DNA from: Pleurocapsa sp. PCC 7319
GTDB lineage: Bacteria; Cyanobacteriota; Cyanobacteriia; Cyanobacteriales; Xenococcaceae
Direction of reading: 5' to 3'
Assembly (NCBI RefSeq): GCF_000332195.1
Contig: NZ_KB235922.1
Location: 496,001-560,000 of the forward strand
Length of the DNA stretch: 64,000 nucleotides
The position numbers were made by a program, and so were the translations under genes. Below are positions 42,549-56,346 of the stretch, in pieces. The number at the start of each line of letters is the position of its first letter. The first letter of the stretch is position 1. The notes below the pieces were generated by a model. It was given only the letters and a program-made list of their open reading frames with translations, was not told the origin of the DNA and made no database searches.

Positions 42549-44440
42549 ACTCACGGTTCGCTTAAATCAAAGATGGCTAGAAAAATAAAACAGCTCAACT
42601 GTATGCTGAGAAAGAAGTTGAAAGAATAGAGAGACCAACCCGTCTTGAAAGGAACTAACTCAGAAAGAGCAGATGATCTTCCTCTAATTATTCATTGGCT
42701 AAAGCAAATGGAAATAGCATCAATAATTGATCGAGAGCTACCTGTTCCTCATGGGAATCGAAAAGGATTAAGCTACGGTCAATTATCAGTCCTATTTCTA
42801 AGTTATGTAGTGAGCCAATCAGACCATCGATTATGTGCCGTAGAACCATGGGTAGAAAAACATCGGCAAACCTTAGAAATAGCAACAGGATGGAACATTG
42901 GGGGCAAAGATGCCACAGATGACCGACTAGCTGACTTATTAAGTGTCATCGGTTCATCGGAAAATCAAGGGCGAGAGAAAGTAGCAATTCAATTGGGACA
43001 AAGCACAATACGAGCTTATGAATTACCAACGGACAAAGCCAGAAGCGATACCACAAGTTTTAGTGTCTATCATCAGCCCACAAAAGAAACAGAAGGAACT
43101 AACTTGCTGAATTTTGGTTATAGTAAAGACCGCCGCCCTGATTTGGTTCAATATCGTCAAATGTTAGCTACTCTCGACCCCATGGGAATGCCTCTATTGG
43201 GAGCTACATTATCAGGAAATGGAACAGATGAATCTCATTATCTACCAACATGGCAACAATTGGTGGAGATTATTGGTCACAAAGATTTCTTGTTTCTCGC
43301 CGATTCTAAAGGCTCTACTTGGAATAATCGGGGGAAAATTAATCAACAAGGAGGAATTTACTGTTTTCCGCTAGCGATGCATCAGCCTCGTCCCAAACTG
43401 TTATCGCAATGGGTGGCTAATCCACCAACAGCAGTGCAAGAAATTTGTCTCAACTCCGAAGCCGAGTCAGAATCTCCCATTGGTAAGGGTTTTGAAGTTC
43501 CGTTGGGCAGTCTCTGGTATGAAAAAGAACATCAAAAGTGGCATCGTTGGTCAGAACGATGGTTAGTGGTTTGTTCTTATGCTTTACAACAGCGTCAACT
43601 TAAAAGCTTGTCAGCTCGTCTGAGTAAAGCGGAACTTGCCCTAGAAAAACTCGCTAAAAAACCACCACAAGATGAGGTAGCTCTACAAACCAAAGTGGAG
43701 ACTATTCTGAAACGTTATCGAGTTACGGGGCAGATCTTAACTGCGATTGAGAAGAAAATTGGCTATCAAAAAGTTTATCAAGGTGCTGGTCGAGGAAGTA
43801 AGAATCGTCCCTCTCGTCGTGTTCGTCAAACTACTCTTTCCTTGACTTATCAACGTTGTGAGACCGCTATCACCCATCAACAATCCATCGCTGGTTGGAG
43901 ATTGTATGTAACTAATGCTAATTCACAGCGTCTTTCTCTTGAGCAAGCTGTTAACTCTTATCGGGAGCAATGGCAACCTGAAAGAGGTTTTCATCGTTTT
44001 AAACGAGGTCGTCTTCCCGCTTTACCCATCTATTTTCAAGATGAAGAACGGATTCGAGGGCTGATGTTTTTACTAACGATCGCCCTGACTCTGTTTACCT
44101 TGATGGAATTTGTGGTTCGTCGCCAACTAGCGGTGACAAAGCAATCACTTCCTGGACTTTATTCAGGCAATCCCAAGCGCACTACTTTTCGTCCCACTGC
44201 TGAACAATTGCTAGCTGCTTTTGGCGATCTAACTTTGTATCTTTATCCTGATGGCTCTACTGAAATTAGTTCTCTTAATTCTCTTCAAAGACAGATTTTA
44301 AATCTGATGAAGATTCCTGAATCGATTTACATTCTTCCCCAGCTAGTTCCTGATTGACTCCAATCCAGCAAATAATTGCTGTGACTTGATTCTATCCTCT
44401 TTATTTGATTCAATGCATTTTATTTAAGCGAACCGTGAGT
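42549..44440 (+). mobile_element. complete insertion sequence, IS1634-like
   Basis: 1892 bp bounded by perfect 19-bp terminal inverted repeats: ACTCACGGTTCGCTTAAAT at 42549-42567 and its complement at 44422-44440. AATG flanks both ends (42545-42548 and 44441-44444) as a 4-bp target duplication. It holds one transposase gene in the plus direction. It landed just beyond the terminator T run of the rbc operon. Intact ends and an open frame suggest a recent insertion. Confidence 0.9.
42645..44357 (+). CDS. DDE transposase, IS1634/IS4-group type
   Basis: About 570 residues from a TTG at 42645, since no ATG is close. The N-terminal region (DLPLIIHWLKQMEIASIIDR, then GLSYGQLSVLFLSYVV) matches the DUF4277-like domain of this group. 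DDE residues: SDTTSFSVY (first Asp), FLADSKGS (second Asp) and YREQWQPERGFHRFKRG (the YREK-like Glu signature). The frame is intact. The family is assigned from domain order and size; a database comparison would settle the exact name. Confidence 0.85.
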   Translation: MKGTNSERADDLPLIIHWLKQMEIASIIDRELPVPHGNRKGLSYGQLSVLFLSYVVSQSDHRLCAVEPWVEKHRQTLEIATGWNIGGKDATDDRLADLLSVIGSSENQGREKVAIQLGQSTIRAYELPTDKARSDTTSFSVYHQPTKETEGTNLLNFGYSKDRRPDLVQYRQMLATLDPMGMPLLGATLSGNGTDESHYLPTWQQLVEIIGHKDFLFLADSKGSTWNNRGKINQQGGIYCFPLAMHQPRPKLLSQWVANPPTAVQEICLNSEAESESPIGKGFEVPLGSLWYEKEHQKWHRWSERWLVVCSYALQQRQLKSLSARLSKAELALEKLAKKPPQDEVALQTKVETILKRYRVTGQILTAIEKKIGYQKVYQGAGRGSKNRPSRRVRQTTLSLTYQRCETAITHQQSIAGWRLYVTNANSQRLSLEQAVNSYREQWQPERGFHRFKRGRLPALPIYFQDEERIRGLMFLLTIALTLFTLMEFVVRRQLAVTKQSLPGLYSGNPKRTTFRPTAEQLLAAFGDLTLYLYPDGSTEISSLNSLQRQILNLMKIPESIYILPQLVPD

Positions 44441-44603: not shown

Positions 44604-44939
44604 TTAATAACGATTTTGGTTGGGCTTATAAACAATGAAACTAACTGTTTGACATTGCTTGATGTTGTCGAAACCAACAACACGAATGTAACAATCAGAA
44701 TATTCAGAACGACACTCACGAACTTCGTTCAACACATCTTGAGAACCACGAGCATCGAATAAAGGTAATTTCCATAGAGTCCAGTGGTGAAGATCTGGAG
44801 TAGGATCTTTCTCAAACTCCACACCAGGAATATAGCCTTGGTCGATCATGTGATCGATTTGCTTGGCAATTTGCTGGTCAGTTAAAGGAGGTAAATAAGA
44901 AAGGGTTTCGTAACGACGCTCTTTGGGTAATGTTTTCAT
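44604..44939 (-). CDS. rbcS: Rubisco small subunit, form IB
   Basis: 111 residues: [48 protein letters not shown] and [20 protein letters not shown], all typical of RbcS. Eight small subunits cap the octameric large-subunit core. It is the last gene of rbcL-rbcX-rbcS, 24 nt after rbcX. Two hairpins follow, then the insertion sequence. Confidence 0.97.
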
Positions 44940-44963
44940 GGTTTATCTTTGCTTATATTGATT

Positions 44964-45371
44964 TTATTCAGAAGATTCTTCAGTTTCCGATGTCGCTTCT
45001 GATGCATCTGACTCAGATGTTTCGTTAGGCGATCGGGTAAGACGTTCCAAAAGATGGCGACGATGAATCAAATTATCTTGCTTTACGGTCGAAGTGACCA
45101 TCTCAGGGATAAACTCTAAAGTTTGCTCTGCTATATTGTCGCGAACGGTCATTATACGCAGTGCCAGCTCTTTTCCCCTTGGTTCAGACATTATTTCTTC
45201 GATGTAGGCTTCTGCATCTCGCAGTTTCCCTCCTGAAGAATATTGCCTTAACCAAATGGCTTCTCCTGGATTAGTCTCTGCTAGTTGTTCAATAACTAGC
45301 ATTACCGCTTTGTAAGTTAAATAATTTTGGACAACTTTTGCCGTATCTTTTGCAATATCTTTTGGTTGCAT
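44964..45371 (-). CDS. rbcX: Rubisco assembly chaperone RbcX
   Basis: 135 residues, mostly helical. DIAKDTAKVVQNYLTYKAVM, then AEAYIEEIMSEPRGKELALR and VRDNIAEQTLEFIPEM, are diagnostic. The dimer binds the C-terminal EIKFEFD peptide of RbcL and aids L8 core assembly; that peptide ([11 protein letters not shown]) is present in the upstream rbcL. An acidic disordered tail (SEATSETEESSE) follows. It lies between rbcL and rbcS, as in most beta-cyanobacteria. Confidence 0.95.
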   Translation of the reverse strand: MQPKDIAKDTAKVVQNYLTYKAVMLVIEQLAETNPGEAIWLRQYSSGGKLRDAEAYIEEIMSEPRGKELALRIMTVRDNIAEQTLEFIPEMVTSTVKQDNLIHRRHLLERLTRSPNETSESDASEATSETEESSE

Positions 45372-45478
45372 TTAGTTTTATACAGTTAATCTGAGATTAT
45401 TAATTATTGATTATTTTGAATCTTTATTGTCGATCTCAGAATTAACTGTTAGCTGTTCACAAATAACTATTCTCTTGT

Positions 45479-46894
45479 TTAGAGAGTATCTACAGCGTCA
45501 AACTCAAATTTGATTTCTTTCCAAAGTTCACAAGCTGCAGCTAGCTCAGGACTCCAACGACAAGCTTCACGGATAACATCATTACCTTCGCGAGCCAATG
45601 AACGACCTTCATTACGAGCTTGAATACAAGCTTCTAAAGCTACACGGTTAGCAGTTGCACCAGGAGCATTACCCCAAGGGTGTCCTAAAGTACCACCACC
45701 AAACTGTAAACAAGAATCATCACCAAAGATTTCAACTAGTGCTGGCATGTGCCATACGTGGATACCACCAGAAGCGACAGGCATCGTACCAGGCATAGAA
45801 GCCCAATCTTGAGTGAAGAAGTTACCACGAGAGCGATCTTCTTCTACATAGTCTTCACGCATTTGGTCTACAAAACCTAGAGTGATATCTCTTTCACCCT
45901 CTAATTTACCCACAACAGTACCAGAGTGTAGATGATCACCACCAGACATACGAAGACACTTAGCTAGAACCCGGAAGTGAATACCATGATTTCTTTGACG
46001 GTCAATTACAGCGTGCATTGCGCGGTGAATGTGCAACAATACACCATTTGCACGACACCATTTAGCTAAAGTAGTGTTAGCAGTAAAACCACCAGTCAAG
46101 AAGTCATGCATAACGATTGGAGTGCCAATCTCTTTGGCAAAATTAGCACGCTCCATCATTTGCTCACAAGTAGCAGCAGTTACGTTAAGGTAGTGACCTT
46201 TAACTTCATTGGTTTCTGCTTGAGATTTTTCAATTGCTTCTTGCACAAATAAGAAGCGATCGCGCCAGCGCATGAAAGGCTGAGAATTAATGTTTTCGTC
46301 ATCTTTGGTGAAATCTAGACCACCACGTAGACATTCATAAACTGCACGACCATAGTTTTTGGCAGATAGACCTAATTTAGGTTTGATTGTGCAACCTAAT
46401 AAAGGACGACCATACTTGTTTAATAAGTCTCTTTCCACAGTGATACCGTGAGGCGGTCCTTGGAAAGTTTTCATCAAAGCTACAGGAATACGGAGATCCT
46501 CTAGACGTAATGCACGTAAAGCTTTGAAACCAAATACGTTACCTACCAAAGAAGTGAGAATATTGGTTACAGAACCCTCTTCAAACAAATCCATTGGGTA
46601 AGCGACAAAACAGAAATACTGGTTGTCTTCTCCAGGAACAGGTTCAACTTCATAACAACGACCTTTATAACGATCTAGGTCAGTTAAACCATCTGTCCAT
46701 ACTGTTGTCCAAGTACCAGTAGAAGATTCCGCAGCTACCGCAGCTGCACACTCTTCAGCAGGAACACCAGGTTGAGGGGTCATGCGGAAACAAGCCAAAA
46801 GGTCTGTATCCTTGGGGGTGTAGTCTGGAGTGTAATAAGTTAGGCGATAGTCTTGTACACCAGCCTTAAATCCAGCACCTGTCTTAGTTGCCAT
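45479..46894 (-). CDS. rbcL: Rubisco large subunit, form IB
   Basis: 471 residues, full length. The N-terminus [20 protein letters not shown] is of form [12 protein letters not shown] carries the carbamylated Lys197 (Lys201 in spinach numbering) with the Asp/Glu magnesium ligands. [12 protein letters not shown] is flexible loop 6, and [11 protein letters not shown] is the C-terminal RbcX-binding peptide. It fixes CO2 onto ribulose bisphosphate inside the carboxysome. GGAGGAATGACCGAAC precedes the ATG. It leads the operon; the 599-bp upstream region holds candidate NtcA and LysR-type sites. Confidence 0.98.
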
Positions 46895-47493: not shown

Positions 47494-48174
47494 CTACTCT
47501 AATGATTTTTTATGGTGGGAATTTAAATCTTTATTGTGAGGAAATAAAGTAACCAATAGTTCGTTGATATAAACCTGTCCAACCACTGGGACTTTTTCTT
47601 TTTGAACCATAGGTTCAACTTTTTCTACTTGGGGAATTGAAGATGAGTTTGGTTCTTGATTAGAATCTGATGCCACAGTTTGATGAGGTTGTTTGGCAGA
47701 ACGATTATTAGAGTTACTAGTTCTTCGGGGATCTTGGTCAGCGTTATTTGGCTTGGGAGCTGAGTAGTCATTAACCTTAGTAGTCTTGGGCGTTTCATCT
47801 AAATTTACTTGACGAGAAATATCACCAATAATTGAACCTGGTTCAATTACAGTCATTGCCGTCACAGTAGCTTGAAAAATTGTGGTTGAAGTACCAACAC
47901 AAGCATTGCTACCAATCTTGCAGTTACCAACGATTAGAACTCCAGAGCCCAAAATAGCTCCACTATCTATTTCGACTGAACCCTGACAGGCATTAATAAT
48001 TACTCCCATACCAATACAGACATCAGCACAAATAACAATACGGCAATTGGGAGCTGCTTGTAAGATAACTCCAGGCGCTAAAGATGCCGTAGGATGAAGC
48101 TCGACATCACCACTAATCCGTATGTCATTATTCAAAATAGGTTGCGGTGGTGGTAAGTAAATCATTGGGGACAA
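47494..48174 (-). CDS. ccmN: carboxysome assembly protein CcmN
   Basis: 226 residues. Residues ~20-120 are left-handed beta-helix hexapeptide repeats (ASLAPGVILQAAPNCRIVIC, then IDSGAILGSGVLIVGNCKIG). A disordered Pro/Ser/Asn linker (~125-195) leads to an amphipathic encapsulation peptide (GQVYINELLVTLFPHNK, ~199-215) that docks onto the CcmK shell. CcmN bridges the CcmM-Rubisco core to the shell. It is the last gene of the ccmKKKLMN operon, 113 bp after ccmM. No ccmO follows. Confidence 0.93.
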   Translation of the reverse strand: MSPMIYLPPPQPILNNDIRISGDVELHPTASLAPGVILQAAPNCRIVICADVCIGMGVIINACQGSVEIDSGAILGSGVLIVGNCKIGSNACVGTSTTIFQATVTAMTVIEPGSIIGDISRQVNLDETPKTTKVNDYSAPKPNNADQDPRRTSNSNNRSAKQPHQTVASDSNQEPNSSSIPQVEKVEPMVQKEKVPVVGQVYINELLVTLFPHNKDLNSHHKKSLE

Positions 48175-48287: not shown

Positions 48288-50345
48288 TTATGGTCGTTGA
48301 ATAATGGTTTCAGCCACTCTTCTTTTATTTTTGGGGTCTATTCCCAATACACGAACATATTCACCCGAGTGTTCAGATAAATAAACCTTTAGAGAAGCAA
48401 CCACGTCTAGCTCATGGCGACTGTCAATAGGAGGGCAGCTTTTCCAAGATTTAGTTTTAAAACGCCGTTTATCAGCGTGTTCTACACCAATTTTATAGCC
48501 AGCAGCCAGCAAAGAACGAATTTCCTGTACTGATTCATTACTCAACTGACGCTGACTAAAGTCGTTATAGTGAGCTGGCTGATTATTGTGCTTATCGCTA
48601 CTAGTGTAATCGGCTACAAAGTAGCTGCGATCTTTGCCATTACCATTAGCTTTGGGATTGTCATTAGGTCTTTGGATAATAGTTTCGGCAACTCTACGTC
48701 TAGCTTGAGAATCGATACCTAACATCCGAACATATTCACCTTTATGTTCTGCTAAACAATCTTCTAAAGCAGCAACTACTTCTGATTCTCGGCTACTATC
48801 AATGGGAGAACAGGTTTTCCAAGATTTAGTTTTAAAGCGTCGTTTATCTGCATGTTCTGAGCCAATTTGATAACCAGCAGCCAATAAAGAGCGAACTTGT
48901 TGAACTACTTCTGAATCTAAACTACCGCTACCACCGTTACTGCTGTAACTAGCTCTACCACCATTACCATTACTATAGTTAGAACCTGAATAACTTCTAG
49001 AAGACTGTACGGGAGCTTGTCCCGGACGCTGAACAATTATTTCAGCCATTCTTCTTTTGGCATTATTATCAGCACCAACAACGCGAACATATTCATTAGG
49101 ATATTCGGCCATAGCTTGCTCAATGGCGCTAAATACCTTATTGCTACCGCCCTCAACTTGTCCAACTGTCAACCAGGATTTGGTTTTGAAGCGACGCTTA
49201 CTCGCGCGTTCGATACCAATGCTACAGCCTTGATTAATTAAGCTATCGATCTGCTGTGCAACATCACCACCTAAATTGCCGCTAGTACTCGTGCTATAGC
49301 CAGAGCGATTTCTACCACCGCGATTTCTGCCCCTATTATGGGTGGCAATAGTTTTGACTGTTCCCTCTCCTGGGCTATCTTCAGGACGTTGGACAATCAT
49401 CTCCACCACTCTTCTTCTGACTTTGGGATCTACCCCAATGAGCCTAACGTACTCTCCTTGGTACTCTCGAAGCACAGATTCTAACTCACTCACTACATGA
49501 TTTTCATTACGACTTTCGATTCGCTCGCCAGTGAGCCAGGATTTAGTTTTAAAACGGCGTTTATTAGCGTGTTCAGTGCTGATAATACAGCCTTGCGCCA
49601 ATAGCGATCGCACTTGGGTCCTAATATCTGAACTTAAACTCATATTCCCTACTGAATTTTTATAATCATTCTCATTTCTGACATCGGAAATTAGACTTGC
49701 GTCTGCTTTATTTCGTTCGCGAGCGTTGTAAGCCTGGGGATTAACACAGGCATTATCATCGGCACAACGATAACCAGCCAAAAGAGCCTCGTTAATTTCA
49801 ACAACGTGGTGAGCAAAAGAGCGATCGCTATCAATAACATTTGGTAAGCGTTCGGCTTGCTGCTGATTGACAATTACTGCCCCCGAAGGAACATACTTGC
49901 CTGGTGGAATTTCCACATCCTGAATTAGAGCATGCATCATTACAATGCAACCATCTCCAACTTTGGCATTAAATACCGTGGAGCGAAAACCAATAAAGCA
50001 TTCATCTCCAATGTAGGCTGGACCATGAATTAGTGCCATATGGGTAATACAAGTATTACTGCCAATCCAGACAGAATACTCCTTACCATCGTCACCAACT
50101 ACCCGACCCTTCTCCAAACCATGGATAACAACACCATCTTGGATATTGCTACTTTCGCCAATATAAAAAGGTGTTCCCTCATCGGCTCTGATGGAACTGC
50201 CTGGAGCCACAAAAACGTTGGCTCCGACCCTAACGTCTCCAATCAATCTGGAAAAGGAATGAACGTATGCACTTTCATCTACTTGTGGTGTTGCTGAATC
50301 ACTCGACCATGGAGTCGGGGGAGCCGCTTTAGTGCGGACTGCCAT
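48288..50345 (-). CDS. ccmM: carboxysome core scaffold and gamma-carbonic anhydrase-like CcmM
   Basis: 685 residues. Residues 1-210 are a gamma-carbonic anhydrase beta-helix with His75, His102 and His107 as zinc ligands and a Cys194/Cys200 pair, matching the active CcmM of Thermosynechococcus at the same positions. Four Rubisco small-subunit-like modules follow (~237-321, 358-441, 476-560, 600-685), each with RRFKTKSW and ending in a VQRP/IQRP motif, joined by Gly/Ser/Asn linkers. The modules bind Rubisco into the carboxysome core; a shorter CcmM35-like form may start internally. The third module has Cys512/Cys530 spaced like the redox pair described in Synechococcus. Four modules is at the upper end of the usual three to five. 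Confidence 0.96.
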
Positions 50346-50453: not shown

Positions 50454-50762
50454 CTAAGACAAACGTTCTGCCTCTTTTTTACTGTAGAGTGCGTTGCGGT
50501 CCACGTTGACCGTATCAATAATGCCCACGATTGTGGCATCTAGAGGTTTAGATTCTTGACCAGCCTCAATACGAGCCGCACTACCTCGACTAACCAAGAC
50601 CCACTCATTAACACCAGCACCAATCAAGTCTCCTGCTACTTCATATTTAGATAAAAGTTGTCCCTGTTCATCTATATATTGAACTAGAAGTAACTTAATC
50701 CCTCTCATACTAGGGACTTTGTGAGTGCTAACAACTGTACCGCGAACTTGGGCTATTTGCAT
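50454..50762 (-). CDS. ccmL: carboxysome vertex protein CcmL
   Basis: 102 residues of the EutN/CcmL family: MQIAQVRGTVVSTHKVPSMR, then AGDLIGAGVNEWVLVSRGSA and VGIIDTVNV. Pentamers close the twelve vertices of the icosahedral shell. It starts 20 nt after the third ccmK and is followed 108 bp later by ccmM. Confidence 0.96.
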   Translation of the reverse strand: MQIAQVRGTVVSTHKVPSMRGIKLLLVQYIDEQGQLLSKYEVAGDLIGAGVNEWVLVSRGSAARIEAGQESKPLDATIVGIIDTVNVDRNALYSKKEAERLS

Positions 50763-50782: not shown

Positions 50783-51121
50783 TTATGGTCTTCTCAGAGG
50801 ACGAGGATTTACGCTTTCACGAAACTGCTCGACAGCTTCGGTATAACGAATGGGTAAGACGTATTCAAGATTTTCATGAGGACGAGCGATAATGTGAGTC
50901 GAAAGGACTTGTCCTCCATTTACTCGGCTTACATTTTCTGTGCCCGCAGCAACAGAAGCTTGTACTTCGGATACATCACCACGGACAATTACAGTCACGC
51001 GTCCTGTACCAATTTTTTCGTATCCTACTAGGGTAACCCGGGCGGCTTTTACCATGGCATCTGCCGCTTCTACTACCGCAGGAAAGCCTAGCGTTTCAAT
51101 CATTCCAACTGCAATTGACAT
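50783..51121 (-). CDS. ccmK1: carboxysome shell protein CcmK1-like
   Basis: 112 residues, BMC domain. The pore loop reads YEKIGTGR. The C-terminus is extended ([14 protein letters not shown]), a feature of CcmK1 compared with the 103-residue CcmK2. Hexamers tile the shell facets; the KIGTG pore passes bicarbonate and sugar phosphates. It is the third ccmK in the operon. The first 120 nt differ from the middle copy at only 5 positions by my count, whereas the 3' part is much more diverged. Confidence 0.93.
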
Positions 51122-51229
51122 ATTTTTACTCCTGAATTATCTTAAGTGGGAAATATTGCCTGATTTAGTTACTTCCCTAGTTAAACTTTTAGCTCAACCA
51201 GTTTCAAGTTCTCGCTTAAATACTACTTA

Positions 51230-51541
51230 TTAATAGGTACGAAACTGTTCTACTTCTTCGGTGTAGCGAATTGGCAGTACATATTCGAGGTTCTCATGGG
51301 GACGAGCAATGATGTGAGTCGAAAGAACCTGACCGCCGTTTACTCTAGTCACGTTTTCTGTCCCCGCAGCTACGGAAGCCTGCACCTCAGATACGTCACC
51401 ACGGACAATTACAGTTACACGACCTGTACCAATTTTTTCGTATCCCACTAGGGTAACCCGGGCGGCTTTTACCATGGCATCTGCTGCTTCTACTACCGCA
51501 GGAAATCCTAGCGTTTCAATCATTCCGACTGCAATTGACAT
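51230..51541 (-). CDS. ccmK: third carboxysome CcmK, a mosaic of its neighbours
   Basis: 103 residues, BMC domain with the KIGTG pore loop. The 5' 120 nt differ from ccmK1 at 5 positions; the 3' 88 nt differ from the first copy (ccmK2-like) at about 6 but from ccmK1 at about 19. Amino acids follow suit: AADAM and GTEN are shared with ccmK1, and the EEVEQFRTY ending is ccmK2-like. The breakpoint lies near codons 72-75. This is the product expected from unequal crossing-over between tandem ccmK2 and ccmK1. The flanking spacers are 106 and 108 bp. The gene is intact. Confidence 0.93.
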
Positions 51542-51647
51542 ATTTTTACTCCTTATTTATAAATAGCGATCGCCAATTAGGTTTAATTAATTAACTGTTG
51601 TTTGATTTTGAGACTGAAATGAAATTATATTTTTTACTCAGGAATCA

Positions 51648-51959
51648 CTAATAGGAGCGAAACTGTTCTACTTCTTCGGTGTAGCGAATCGGTAGCACAT
51701 ATTCTAAGTTCTCATGGGGGCGAGCAATGATGTGAGTCGAAAGAACCTCTCCACCGTTTACTCGATTAGCAGAATCAACTCCAGCAGCAACTGAAGCCTG
51801 AACTTCAGATACATCACCACGCACAATTACCGTAACGCGACCAGTACCGATTTTCTCGTATCCTACAAGAGTGACCCGAGCTGCTTTGACCATTGAGTCT
51901 GCTGCCTCTACTACTGCGGGAAAACCCAAAGTTTCGATCATTCCTACTGCGATAGGCAT
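51648..51959 (-). CDS. ccmK2: carboxysome shell protein CcmK2-like
   Basis: 103 residues, single BMC domain: [20 protein letters not shown], pore loop [28 protein letters not shown] and an EEVEQFRSY end. Length and sequence fit CcmK2, the major facet hexamer. It is the first gene of the ccm operon. Upstream lies a ~960-bp regulatory region shared with the divergent ndhF3 operon. Confidence 0.95.
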
Positions 51960-52919
51960 TTTTTATCCTTTCCTCTTCAAACCGAATATTAATAATTATG
52001 AGTAGCCCAGCTATGTCTGGCAAAAAGCCTCAACTTAGCTACTAATTGTGTTGTTCCACTCCTAGATGTGGTTACCCAACCCATCTTTTCAGACTCATCA
52101 TATTATGAGTTCTATTATTTTCACCAAGATTATCAATTGTGGCAGCTTACCTTGCCCTGACAAAATACTTTAGTCAAAACAATCTGGTATTGGCTAATTT
52201 ACCACCTATGATCAAGCATAAATAACCTTGACTCCTTTGACAACATAAAACATGATTATATTTTTTAATTTGATTGTTAATAAGAATTAATACTTGTTGT
52301 CTAAACAACAGTTTCTTATCCAGCTCAAATCATGATAACTAGCATTAAATATACTTTTTATAATTTATTTATAATAATTACTATTTCTGGTTAAGTAGAG
52401 TTCCTAAATAATTTTCTGCAACATAATTTTGACTTAACTTGCTTGAGACGTAGACTCTTACAACCCTAACTAAGCATGGATTGTAAACTTTTAAGGTTTT
52501 TATTTAATAGCCACCTCAAGCATATTGTTTCAAAATACAAAAATACTTCTAGTCGGACTGAGATTTTACTTGACAAATCTAACAAAAGCCCAATTTACTG
52601 ATAACTAATTGGTATAAATACTCAAAAAAGCTATAGTATAGCGGCACTAGTAAAACGATCAAGAATAAATATATCCATCAAAACTTGAAGATAATCTGCA
52701 ACCATAATAGTTGATTAAAGGGTTTTTGTGCTCAACTAGTGACCAGATCTTTAAATTTTAAAATAGTCAAATTTAAATGATATTTAAGAGCAGAATAGCT
52801 GTTAGAATAAGGTTTTAAGAAAATATAGTAAATCACAGCTTAGTTAAGACTAAGAAGACTAGCTAACTTAATATTTGATCACTATAAATTTTGGTGTTGT
52901 AAGTTACCCAACAGTTTTG
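51960..52919. promoter_or_regulatory. 960-bp divergent control region between the ccm and NDH-1MS operons
   Basis: No gene is seen. Inverted repeats noticed: ACTCAT/ATGAGT (52093-52098, 52105-52110), TTAAT-AAGA-ATTAA (52277-52290), TGTTG/CAACA (near 52294-52309) and the near-palindrome TCAAATTTAAATGA (52767-52780), about 140 bp before ndhF3. The described NdhR/CcmR site TCAATG-N10-ATCAAT was not found. The length and AT content fit a region controlled by LysR-type regulators. Confidence 0.5.
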
Positions 52920-54815
52920 ATGACTGACTTTTTATTAGAAAAATCTTGGATCATACCCTTATATGGCTTAATAGGTGCAATTGTGACTTTGCCCTGGTCT
53001 TTGGGCATTATTCGCCAGACAGGACCTCGTCCAGCCGCCTATTTCAATATTTTTATGACCTTGTTAGCTTTTATTCATGGGTCAATAATTTTTAACCTAA
53101 TTTGGACTAGGGAAACTCAACAATATGTTTTTCATTGGTTACAGGTAGCAGATTTAGATTTAACTTTATCGATCGAGTTATCTCCAGTTAGTTTCGGTGC
53201 CTTGGAGTTGATAACGGGTATTAGCTTGCTCGTGCAGATTTATGCTTTAGGTTACATGGAAAAAGACTGGTCTTTGGCGCGCTTTTTTGCCCTGATGGGA
53301 TTTTTTGAAGCGGCTTTGGCGGGCTTAGCTCTCAGTGATTCTCTGTTACTCAGTTATTGTTTGTTAGAGGCTTTAACTTTATCCACATATCTCTTAGTCG
53401 GTTTTTGGTATGCTCAGCCTTTAGTAGTAACTGCTGCCAGGGATGCCTTTCTGACTAAAAGGGTCGGAGATATTGCCTTACTTATGGGAATAGTGGCTCT
53501 TTCAAACTACGGAGAAGGACTAAGTTTTTCGGAGTTAGATACTTGGGTAAAAGGACATCAGTTAGACCCGAGCGTAGCTGCCTTGTTGGGTCTAGCTCTA
53601 ATTGCCGGTCCTATCGGTAAATGTGCTCAATTCCCCCTCAATCTCTGGTTAGACGAAGCGATGGAAGGACCCAATCCAGCAGGAATTATGCGTAACTCGA
53701 TCGTTGTTTCGGCTGGAGCCTATGTGCTAATTAAATTAGAGCCGGCGACAACTTTATCCCCGATTTCTGCTGATGCCTTGATTTTGATCGGGACAGTTAC
53801 GGCTATTGGTACATCTTTGATGGCAATCGCTCAGATTGATATTAAGCGAGCTTTATCCCATTCTACTAGTGCTCACATAGGTTTAGTCTTTATTGCCGTA
53901 GGACTAAGGCAAGTAGATATAGCCTTCCTATTGTTATTTAGTCATGCGATCGCCAAAGCTTTATTATTTATGAGTGCTGGATCAGTCATTCTCACTTCTA
54001 ATAATCAAAATGTCAGTGAAATGGGTGGTTTGTGGTCAAGGATGCCTGCTACAGGAATGTCTTTTGTGGTAGGCGCAGCAGGGTTAATTGGATTTGCGCC
54101 CTTAGGTATGTTCTGGACTTATCAACGCTGGTTTAGCGGCTCTTGGGATGTAGACTGGTGGCTGTTGCTGTTGGTGATGTTTGTTAATACTTTCTCTGCG
54201 ATTAACTTGACAAGATTATTTCGGATTATTTTTCTGGGTGAGCCACAGGTTAAAACCCGTCGTGCTCCTGAATCTCCTTGGCTTATGGCAGTACCGATGG
54301 TTGCCCTGATGGTCGTTACTTTAATTGCTACCTCTGCTCCTATACAATGGCCTCTCTGGTTAAGTCCGAATACCCCTTTACCTCTGGATCAACCAGAATT
54401 AATTAATCAATATGCAGTACCGTTGTTGATTGCCTCAGGGGCATTAGGGTGCGTAATTGGTTCAACTATATCAGTACGTCAAGCCTGGTCAAGATCTAGT
54501 AATTTTGCAGTTCGATTTGTTCAGGATTTGTTAGCCTACGATTTTTATGTAGATAAATTGTATGAAGTAACAGTTGTTGCTGCGGTTTCTGCTTTTTCTA
54601 AATTTACTTCTTGGATTGACCGTTATGTAGTTGATGGAGCAGTGAATTTAGTCAGTTTAGCCACAATCTTTAGTAGTAATGCCTTGAAATACAACGTTTC
54701 TGGACAATCTCAATTTTACCTTGCCACGATTGTGATTGGCGTAGGCTTGCTGTTATGGTCGATGCTCCATGGTCAGTGGTCAATAGTTACTAACTATTGG
54801 TCCTCAATTATGTAA
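52920..54815 (+). CDS. ndhF3: NDH-1MS subunit NdhF3
   Basis: 631 residues from the ATG at 52920 (MTDFLLEKSWIIPLYGLIGA), which matches the usual NdhF3 start; a TTG at 52875 in frame is unlikely. About 15-16 membrane helices. The Mrp-type antiporter core is VGDIALLMG, then GPIGKCAQFPLNLWLDEAME-GPNPAG and HSTSAHIG. NdhF3 is specific to the inducible, high-affinity CO2-uptake form of NDH-1 in thylakoids, working with NdhD3 and CupA. It is first in the operon ndhF3-ndhD3-cupA. Confidence 0.93.
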   Translation: MTDFLLEKSWIIPLYGLIGAIVTLPWSLGIIRQTGPRPAAYFNIFMTLLAFIHGSIIFNLIWTRETQQYVFHWLQVADLDLTLSIELSPVSFGALELITGISLLVQIYALGYMEKDWSLARFFALMGFFEAALAGLALSDSLLLSYCLLEALTLSTYLLVGFWYAQPLVVTAARDAFLTKRVGDIALLMGIVALSNYGEGLSFSELDTWVKGHQLDPSVAALLGLALIAGPIGKCAQFPLNLWLDEAMEGPNPAGIMRNSIVVSAGAYVLIKLEPATTLSPISADALILIGTVTAIGTSLMAIAQIDIKRALSHSTSAHIGLVFIAVGLRQVDIAFLLLFSHAIAKALLFMSAGSVILTSNNQNVSEMGGLWSRMPATGMSFVVGAAGLIGFAPLGMFWTYQRWFSGSWDVDWWLLLLVMFVNTFSAINLTRLFRIIFLGEPQVKTRRAPESPWLMAVPMVALMVVTLIATSAPIQWPLWLSPNTPLPLDQPELINQYAVPLLIASGALGCVIGSTISVRQAWSRSSNFAVRFVQDLLAYDFYVDKLYEVTVVAAVSAFSKFTSWIDRYVVDGAVNLVSLATIFSSNALKYNVSGQSQFYLATIVIGVGLLLWSMLHGQWSIVTNYWSSIM

Positions 54816-54894
54816 TGGTCGTGTCGATATTATTCAATCTTTAAACATATTTGTTCGGTCAATTTTGTTAAATTCCCAGAGATAATCACAAATT

Positions 54895-56346
54895 ATGCTC
54901 AGTGCCTTAATCCTTATTCCTTTTTTGGCTGCGGCGATAGTAGGTTTAACTCCCTTAAAAGGAACAATTTGCCGCAATATTGCTCTTGTTACAGCAGTTA
55001 CTACTTTAGGTATCAATATAGTTCTTGGTTTTCAGTTTGATTTTCAACATCCAGGATGCCAGTTTGCTCAAGATATTCCTTGGATTGAGTGGATCGGTTT
55101 AAACTATCATCTGGGAATCGATGGTCTTTCTTTTCCCTTATTATTACTCAATAGTTTATTAACTTTGATTGCCATTATTAGTACTAGCCAGGGGATTCAA
55201 AGACCCAGATTGTATTATGCCATGCTCTTACTATTGAGTGGCGGTGCAGCAGGAGCCTTTTTAGCTCAGGATTTACTACTGTTTTTCTTATTTTATGAGT
55301 TAGAAATTGTTCCACTATATTTCTTGATTGCCATCTGGGGGGGAGCCAGAAGAGGTTATGCAGCCATGAAGTTTTTACTTTATACTGCGCTATCGGGAAT
55401 TTTGGTATTAGCTTCCTTTCTAGGCTTGGTTTGGTTAACTGGAGCAAGTACTTTTGATTATCAAACATTGCGAGATTACACTCTACCTCTTGGTAGCCAA
55501 TTACTATTACTAGCCCCACTCTTAATTGGAGTGTTTATTAAAATCCCCATTTTTCCCTTCCATACGTGGCTGCCAGATGCTCACGTAGAGGCATCCACCC
55601 CCATATCAGTATTGCTCGCCGGAGTACTACTCAAGCTAGGAACTTATGCCCTCTTACGTTTTGGAGTCGGTTTATTTCTCGAAGCTTGGGTTTATCTTGC
55701 TCCCTGGTTAGCAGTATTAGCCGCAATTAGTGCTTTATATGGAGCTTCCTGTGCGATCGCTCAAACAGACATGAAAAAAGTAGTGGCGTACTCCTCAATT
55801 GCTCACATGGCCTATATTCTCCTAGCGGCATCTGCTTCTACTCGTCTCAGTATGACTGCTGCTGTGTTTCAAATGGTCAGCCATGGATTAATCTCAGCAT
55901 TTTTGTTCTTACTGGTGGGAATGGTATACAAAAAAACTGGCTCGCGAGATGTCAATTATTTAAGAGGTCTGCTTAATCCAGAAAGAGGCTTACCTGTTAC
56001 TGGAGGAATGATGATTCTGGGGGTAATGGCTAGTTCAGGATTACCAGGTATGGTCGGCTTTATTTCCGAATTTTTAGTATTTAGAGGAAGTATTGCTATT
56101 TTCCCGATACCAACTCTTTTATGTATGGTGGGAACTGGTTTAACGGCAGTCTACTTTTTATTAGTTATTAATAAAGTCTTTTTTGGTCGTCTCACCGTTG
56201 GGTTGCCTAAAATCCCCCCTGTCAAGTGGAAAGAACACGCTCCTGCTTTTGTCCTACTGTTGCTAATTTTCGCCTTTGGTCTTAAACCAGATTGGGTTAC
56301 TCACTGGAGTGAAGTACAAGCGATCGCCCTTTTAACAGGAGGCTAA
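54895..56346 (+). CDS. ndhD3: NDH-1MS subunit NdhD3
   Basis: 483 residues with ~14 membrane helices. LLFFLFYELEIVPLYFLIAI holds the conserved Glu of helix 5. IFPFHTWLPDAHVEASTPIS and KKVVAYSSIAHMAYILLAAS are hallmark NdhD motifs. It is the proton-pumping partner of NdhF3 in the CO2-uptake complex. It starts 79 nt after ndhF3 and is followed by cupA 120 nt downstream. Confidence 0.93.
   Translation: MLSALILIPFLAAAIVGLTPLKGTICRNIALVTAVTTLGINIVLGFQFDFQHPGCQFAQDIPWIEWIGLNYHLGIDGLSFPLLLLNSLLTLIAIISTSQGIQRPRLYYAMLLLLSGGAAGAFLAQDLLLFFLFYELEIVPLYFLIAIWGGARRGYAAMKFLLYTALSGILVLASFLGLVWLTGASTFDYQTLRDYTLPLGSQLLLLAPLLIGVFIKIPIFPFHTWLPDAHVEASTPISVLLAGVLLKLGTYALLRFGVGLFLEAWVYLAPWLAVLAAISALYGASCAIAQTDMKKVVAYSSIAHMAYILLAASASTRLSMTAAVFQMVSHGLISAFLFLLVGMVYKKTGSRDVNYLRGLLNPERGLPVTGGMMILGVMASSGLPGMVGFISEFLVFRGSIAIFPIPTLLCMVGTGLTAVYFLLVINKVFFGRLTVGLPKIPPVKWKEHAPAFVLLLLIFAFGLKPDWVTHWSEVQAIALLTGG

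Follow-up and report, generated by a model that had tools for sequence, protein, structure and literature searches.

The middle member of a tandem array of three ccmK genes in Pleurocapsa sp. PCC 7319 is, judged from its sequence, a real chimera of CcmK1 and CcmK2. Its present form is very probably the product of an old founding of a chimeric gene followed by repeated homogenising, within each genome, of the 5' part of that gene with that of its downstream neighbour, the tails being spared. The mosaic pattern was first remarked on in an examination of the DNA letters without database searches (referred to below as the sequence-only reading), which ascribed it to unequal crossing-over.

The locus and its three ccmK genes

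The window, by which is meant the whole stretch of 64,000 nt that was analysed, contains the main beta-carboxysome locus, in which three ccmK1/2 paralogs are ordered U, M, D (for upstream, middle and downstream). All three ORFs are intact on the minus strand between window positions 50783 and 51959, as the sequence-only reading had recognised, and each encodes a single Pfam BMC domain (PF00936; 98.4, 99.2 and 99.1 bits for U, M and D against a cut-off of 24.5). After the array come ccmL, ccmM and a ccmN-like gene, the main-locus context of the CcmK1/2 superclass. The features that matter here are the following.

51648..51959, minus strand: U, first ccmK gene, 103 aa, short-tailed, CcmK2-type (P2, A64-N65, E71)
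51660..51747, minus strand: nt 213-300 of U, near M (6/88 nt differ)
51542..51647, minus strand: U-M spacer, 106 nt
51230..51541, minus strand: M, middle ccmK gene, 103 aa; leader and body CcmK1-like, short tail CcmK2-like
51395..51541, minus strand: nt 1-147 of M, homogenised with D (third-position maximum chi-square break at nt 147, P 0.0005)
51242..51329, minus strand: nt 213-300 of M, near U (6/88 nt differ)
51122..51229, minus strand: M-D spacer, 108 nt
50783..51121, minus strand: D, third ccmK gene, CcmK1-type, 112 aa, with a long C-terminal tail
50975..51121, minus strand: nt 1-147 of D, homogenised with M (maximum chi-square, phylogeny and pairing tests)
50454..50762, minus strand: ccmL (EutN_CcmL), next gene in the main carboxysome locus
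48288..50345, minus strand: ccmM, with four RuBisCO_small stretches
47494..48174, minus strand: ccmN-like gene with hexapeptide repeats, named by position and repeat type

Rubisco and shell genes are linked here, since rbcL-rbcX-rbcS lies about 600 nt downstream of the ccmN-like gene on the same strand. In this region (44604-46894), rbcX (44964-45371) and rbcS (44604-44939), both on the minus strand, were named by Pfam, and the minus-strand frame at 45479-46894 is, by recognition, presumably rbcL. Just past rbcS is a transposase gene on the plus strand (42645-44357; DDE_Tnp_1, with DUF4277 under its cut-off). Divergent from the ccmK array are two NADH-dehydrogenase-like genes (52875-56346, plus strand), which we take, again by recognition, to be ndhF and ndhD; the first of them is found near the array on the same contig in 27 of the 29 genomes searched. 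The octamer GCGATCGC, the HIP1 element, occurs in 54 copies in the 64-kb window, whose G+C content is 39%; one copy, at 51566, falls within the U-M spacer. Well away from the locus (G000:C7:2053377-2053919) is a 310-aa frame that contains two BMC domains, and a genome-wide PF00936 search found no second two-domain frame elsewhere; ccmO, as this frame would be named, is therefore probably a satellite gene in the window's genome.

Mosaic structure of the middle gene

Over nt 1-120, M differs from D at 5 of 120 positions and from U at 25 of 120; over nt 213-300, it differs from D at 19 of 88 and from U at 6 of 88. The counts of the sequence-only reading (5/120 and about 19/88 for D, about 6/88 for U) are thereby reproduced. 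The intervening nt 121-212 match neither neighbour (18/92 against D and 25/92 against U, with U and D differing from each other at 22/92), and the change in M-D difference between the first segment and this one is significant (5/120 vs 18/92, Fisher P 0.0006).

A recombination-breakpoint test had also been proposed. It took the form of a 3SEQ-style permutation with M as the child of D (5') and U (3'), and gave P = 2e-5 for all sites and 3e-5 for third positions; making D or U the child instead raises P to 0.24 or more (window). With all 16 three-gene arrays tested (D of G003 being cut to nt 1-204 for this purpose), the P value of the window (5e-5) survives correction for the 16 tests. When the parents are exchanged, so that M begins as U and continues as D, the window is also significant (P 2e-4, the lowest value that 5000 permutations allow); the exchanged run cannot serve as an independent control, because the statistic detects clustering of either parent. 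Only three of the 16 arrays (G000, G013 and G020) have a D-then-U mosaic at P no higher than 0.003, and other genes make the better child elsewhere: D in G011 (P 0.0024), D in G003 (P 0.009) and U in G013 (P 0.009).

The switch had been placed near codons 72-75. A switch is present, at informative sites 191/195, which is to say in codons 64-65, and it is not sharp: the similarity of M to D is over by about nt 147. At third positions, M and D differ at 7 of 48 sites before nt 147 and at 31 of 52 after it (P 0.0005), so that the closeness expected of a concerted pair extends to synonymous sites too in the window triplet, to which this result is confined. U and M, for their part, differ at 37 of 64 third positions before nt 195 and at 7 of 36 after it (P 0.005; window).

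The leader and the residues of M bear out its mixed nature. The 16-nt leader of M is nearer to that of D than to that of U in 15 of the 16 three-gene arrays (ungapped comparison; the exception is G002), and the last 14 or so nt of the U-M spacer, the ribosome site, resemble the D leader, the rest being unlike the M-D spacer. Residues S2, V64 and Q71 of M are of the CcmK1 (D) kind; E96 agrees with U within the window's family, at a position that fails to separate first from last genes in 66 two-gene arrays (A in 43 vs 33). In those same arrays P2 is found in 48/66 and E71 in 64/66 first genes, and Q71 in 56/66 last genes. Of P2 and E71, which are CcmK2 residues as chosen in this analysis and not by a published definition, U has both and M, with S2 and Q71, has neither. 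The sequence-only reading of M as a hybrid of ccmK1 and ccmK2 is supported by its leader, its residues and its short tail.

In the 3' segment, M of the window differs from its own U at 6 positions, from the U of G003 at 7 and from the U of G002 at 8. The tree of this short segment (87 nt) is poorly resolved and gave no clear history, so that the case for U-M exchange at the 3' end is carried mainly by the counts.

An old array and its apparent losses

M was found in all 13 genomes of the genus, and 10 of them, the window's included, encode an identical M protein. The natural hybrid shell protein of the sequence-only reading is a hybrid indeed, yet one that is old and common to the genus. That reading had also named three equally old copies in relatives, with no breakpoint signal, as grounds for giving it up: the three old copies were found, the lack of a breakpoint signal was not. 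U-M-D is kept in nine of the 13 genomes (in G003 with a frameshifted D), and M-D without U is present in the other four (G001, G007, G009 and G010). (The U or M label of the first gene in two-gene arrays was assigned from its residues.)

The four short arrays look like U losses. In these arrays the sequence upstream of M matches the region upstream of U in the other genomes, and the U-M spacer adjoins M (the spacer match in G009 is one piece of 39 nt). In G007 (locus L154) the first 32 nt of U, with the leader, are fused to the U-M spacer; 29 of the 32 match U of the window, and this stump is the deletion scar of a lost shell gene. The retention of upstream region, spacer and stump argues that the three-gene state is old and that it is U, not M, that gets lost. 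In a tree of the NdhF-like neighbour, in which several other nodes of the genus are weak, G001 groups with G000 and G005 (support 73) and G010 with G008 (98). Taken at face value, that tree implies more than one loss of U.

Elsewhere in the family three genes were found in five of 14 genomes (two of two in genus g2, one of two in g7 and two of four in g4), a count that gives no frequency for the order, the 14 having been fetched from 33 'same order' genomes with G039 and G056 picked for showing three hits. Two-gene relatives fall between the three-gene genomes of g2, g7 and g4 on the NdhF-like tree. Among 57 named loci that were scanned, 47 have two genes, nine have one and one has three.

The D gene of G003 (L150, also L068) is frameshifted near codon 68 in a fragmented assembly; sequencing error or a broken gene are both possible. 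It was left out of trees, permutation pairings and segment means, and stands unfiltered in the spacer-length counts given below. The second ccmK gene of G019 was also left out (the search pattern missed it; the search lists two).

Concerted evolution of M and D

The 5' parts of M and D evolve in concert. Across the genus, M and D of the same genome differ by 4.3% over codons 1-40, against 10.8% for random pairings, and by 6.4% against 18.4% over codons 41-60 (P = 5e-5 in each case), and the genome's own D is strictly the nearest in 11 of 12 genomes for either segment. At codons 61-71 the figures are 16.4 vs 20.4% (P 0.002; own D nearest in 2/12), a small effect by which the escape of these codons from M-D homogenising is incomplete; at codons 72-90 they are 8.3 vs 16.0% (P = 5e-5; 7/12), and at codons 91-100 they are 18.1 vs 19.6% (P 0.13; 2/12). 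The mark of a concerted pair, within-genome paralogs nearer than orthologs in several lineages, is therefore found in the 5' part and is not found at codons 91-100.

The trees (all midpoint-rooted) reject a single M clade for the 5' 180 nt (deltaL 242, p-AU 4.6e-61) and are compatible with one for the 3' 87 nt (p-AU 0.245); neither part rejects trees in which every M is paired with the D of its own genome (p-AU 0.295 and 0.196, respectively). An exclusive pair of own M and D appears in the 5' tree for 10 of the 12 genus genomes, nine of them at a support of at least 96 and G012 at 52. The M-D pair of G006 includes the M of G003 (95), and all three copies of G008 cluster together (support 100).

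U shares less in the homogenising. Between U and M of the genus, same-genome and random pairings differ by 14.4 vs 16.8% over codons 1-40 (P 0.001) and by 13.3 vs 18.2% over codons 41-60 (P = 5e-5), and own M is nearest to U in four of nine genomes. In 12 other genomes of the family it is U and D that behave like M and D over codons 1-60 (8.9 vs 15.1% at codons 1-40, 8.9 vs 18.8% at codons 41-60), with P 0.33 at codons 61-71, 0.007 at 72-90 and 0.02 at 91-100. No 5' bias was found in 42 named, more distant loci, mostly from other families (what remained of 47 two-gene loci after L110, L113, L114 and L116 had been dropped for insertions or deletions and 42 of 43 kept on thinning); the same-genome effect there is small and even along the gene (17.3 vs 20.6% in the 5' part, 17.8 vs 20.7% in the 3' part), and the strong 5' bias therefore holds for the window's family only.

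The concerted evolution of M and D is best explained by recurrent gene conversion. Phylogeny and pairing tests attest to the homogenising itself; short conversion tracts would be its cause. The 5' parts of M and D have been repeatedly homogenised, genome by genome, over a stretch that starts at the ribosome site and runs to roughly codons 50-60; exchange is weaker at codons 72-90, and some of it involves U. Codons 61-71 and the tail largely escape, which preserves the identity of each copy, and the likely cause of that escape is selection for a tailed CcmK1 and a tail-less CcmK2.

Origin of the middle gene

Unequal recombination in a ccmK2-ccmK1 pair is the likely founding event of M, and would probably have taken place before the genus diversified. 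The A-(B/A)-B crossover of the sequence-only reading is in that sense kept as a likely old event; as a recent local event, read from the nucleotide counts, it is given up, M being genus-wide. The spacers of other genera are relevant here. In g2, g4 and, more weakly, g7 the two spacers of an array are alike within a genome, with z of 3.0-10.7 without the ribosome site (G013 7.9, G020 3.0, G021 8.9, G026 10.7, G023 3.9), and in g4 each of the two also resembles the only spacer of the two-gene relative G025 (z 9.4-12.1); comparisons across genera give a z of no more than about 3. This is as predicted by unequal crossover or an equivalent tandem duplication, and such events seem to have been repeated. 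Within the window's genus, the paired spacers show no such likeness (z 0.3 in the window and at most 2.0 in the genus); those of the window no longer align, and a founding crossover is not seen directly in this genus. The lengths of 106 and 108 nt are correct, but their near equality is a coincidence and the support for a crossover that was drawn from it carries no weight, because the spacers of the genus are unlike and their lengths in its three-gene arrays vary (98-116 and 59-141).

As to the founding step only, it is quite possible, if on the whole doubtful, that M started by simple tandem duplication of ccmK2 (or ccmK1), with no founding crossover inside the genes, and became chimeric only later, through conversion with D (or U) as donor. 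Homogenising happens often enough to produce a chimera and it reaches the ribosome site, so that the D-like leader of M could have arisen in the same way. A tandem duplication of ccmK1 followed by conversion of the tail would, moreover, give the same spacer layout. What speaks against a plain duplicate is that in g2, g4 and g7 the spacer preceding M resembles the spacer preceding D, as a crossover predicts.

That one unequal crossover, ccmK1 with ccmK2 on two copies of the chromosome, made the present M and left the nucleotide pattern as its direct trace is improbable. It would account for a gene that is D-like at its 5' end and U-like at its 3' end (P = 2e-5), with chimeric residues and leader, and events of this kind do seem to occur in the family, to judge by the alike spacers of g2, g4 and, more weakly, g7. 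A fresh single crossover should, however, leave a sharp breakpoint, with M equal to one parent on each side of it, and a duplicated spacer. Instead, nt 121-212 match neither parent, and the spacers are unlike in the window (z = 0.3) and unequal in relatives. A recent crossover is largely refuted by these unlike spacers, by the occurrence of an old M throughout the genus and by the 5' identity of M and D, which arose genome by genome.

It is very unlikely that M and D of one genome owe their likeness to a common codon usage or G+C content, or to selection at the DNA level, and not to recombination. The proteins are strongly conserved, and the 42 distant loci do have a small same-genome effect along the whole gene. 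In the genus, however, the effect is strong at codons 1-60 and, in these very genes and genomes, absent at codons 91-100, and third positions carry it in the window. Shared composition, set aside on account of this unevenness, does not explain parts of the same genes without the effect; gene conversion fits.

Similar tandem genes can be misassembled, and the frameshifted D of G003 does come from a fragmented assembly, but the assembly artefact that had been named as a possible refutation has next to no probability and was set aside, since the window's genome is 7.39 Mb in 10 contigs, the DNA of the three copies is only 77-86% identical (42, 56 and 68 of 300 nt differ), and three-gene arrays are present in eight of the 12 other genus genomes examined (one with a frameshifted D).

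Function and relation to known systems

The U, M and D proteins are about 91-98% identical over their shared 101 residues (U-D being counted by eye), and the nearest solved chains are CcmK-kind carboxysome shell proteins (6owf_A, E 7.7e-58). CcmK1 is distinguished by a C-terminal extension of about 10-12 aa. D, with 112 aa, has it; M, with 103 aa, does not, and is for that reason not filed as CcmK1, despite its CcmK1-like body. The short tail of CcmK2 is found in U and M (103 aa each), and the first genes of the 66 two-gene arrays encode 102 or 103 aa. Since D alone is tailed, M is predicted most likely to form shell hexamers of the ordinary, tail-less CcmK2 sort.

In Nostoc PCC 7120 and Synechocystis, the chaperone CcmS is reported to bind the tail of CcmK1 and not to bind CcmK2 (PMC11635287). 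D has a long tail of this CcmK1 type and U and M are without it. Because the CcmK1 tail is the CcmS-binding part in those two organisms, selection on the tail is likely. CcmK1 and CcmK2 of Synechocystis PCC 6803, near-identical paralogs of one operon, are reported to form hetero-hexamers on co-expression in E. coli (PMC6788708), which is why the near identity of the bodies probably matters here also; with bodies so close, mixed M/D hexamers or facets would be expected. (Synechocystis PCC 6803 has two genes, as against three here, and the available text of that report makes no claim of evolutionary conversion.)

The presence of one to three ccmK1/2 genes in the main carboxysome locus has already been reported (PMC5853843), for loci in which, as in the window, the ccmK genes are followed by ccmL, ccmM and ccmN. 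The tree in that work cannot separate CcmK1 from CcmK2, whose main difference is the CcmK1 tail of about 10 aa. Its available text mentions neither gene conversion nor a chimeric third copy, and the word 'recombination' is absent from its main text; conversion is offered here as a reason that the two classes are inseparable in trees. Long-lasting recurrent concerted evolution in prokaryotes has been described for 26 genes, including psbA and psbD (PMC6053082). In those genes, as in M and D, within-species paralogs are nearer than orthologs, independently in several lineages, and this is ascribed to gene conversion. M and D, unlike those genes, are homogenised mainly in the 5' part, with the tail spared, and the main text of that paper contains neither 'ccmK' nor 'carboxysome'. 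No paper linking ccmK to gene conversion, unequal crossing or concerted evolution was found, by title or abstract, among the matches listed. What was already known, then, is that up to three ccmK copies occur; the ccmK conversion pattern is, among the matches listed, apparently new, which makes for a solid but modest advance.

Implications

The balance is even on a wider reading, in which tail-sparing, 5'-directed conversion would keep the bodies of tandem ccmK genes in the window's family interchangeable, so that facets or hexamers are shared, and selection would keep the tailed (CcmS-binding) and the tail-less identities distinct; the same recombination would repeatedly yield chimeric third copies in different genera, the copy later being lost. 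If such a regime of conversion exists, it would help to explain why phylogenies fail to separate CcmK1 and CcmK2. The ccmK genes would then be a case of partial concerted evolution, with recombination keeping the bodies alike and the tails being kept apart, a view that opens the role of the tail to testing and cautions that trees built on entire ccmK genes can blend two histories.
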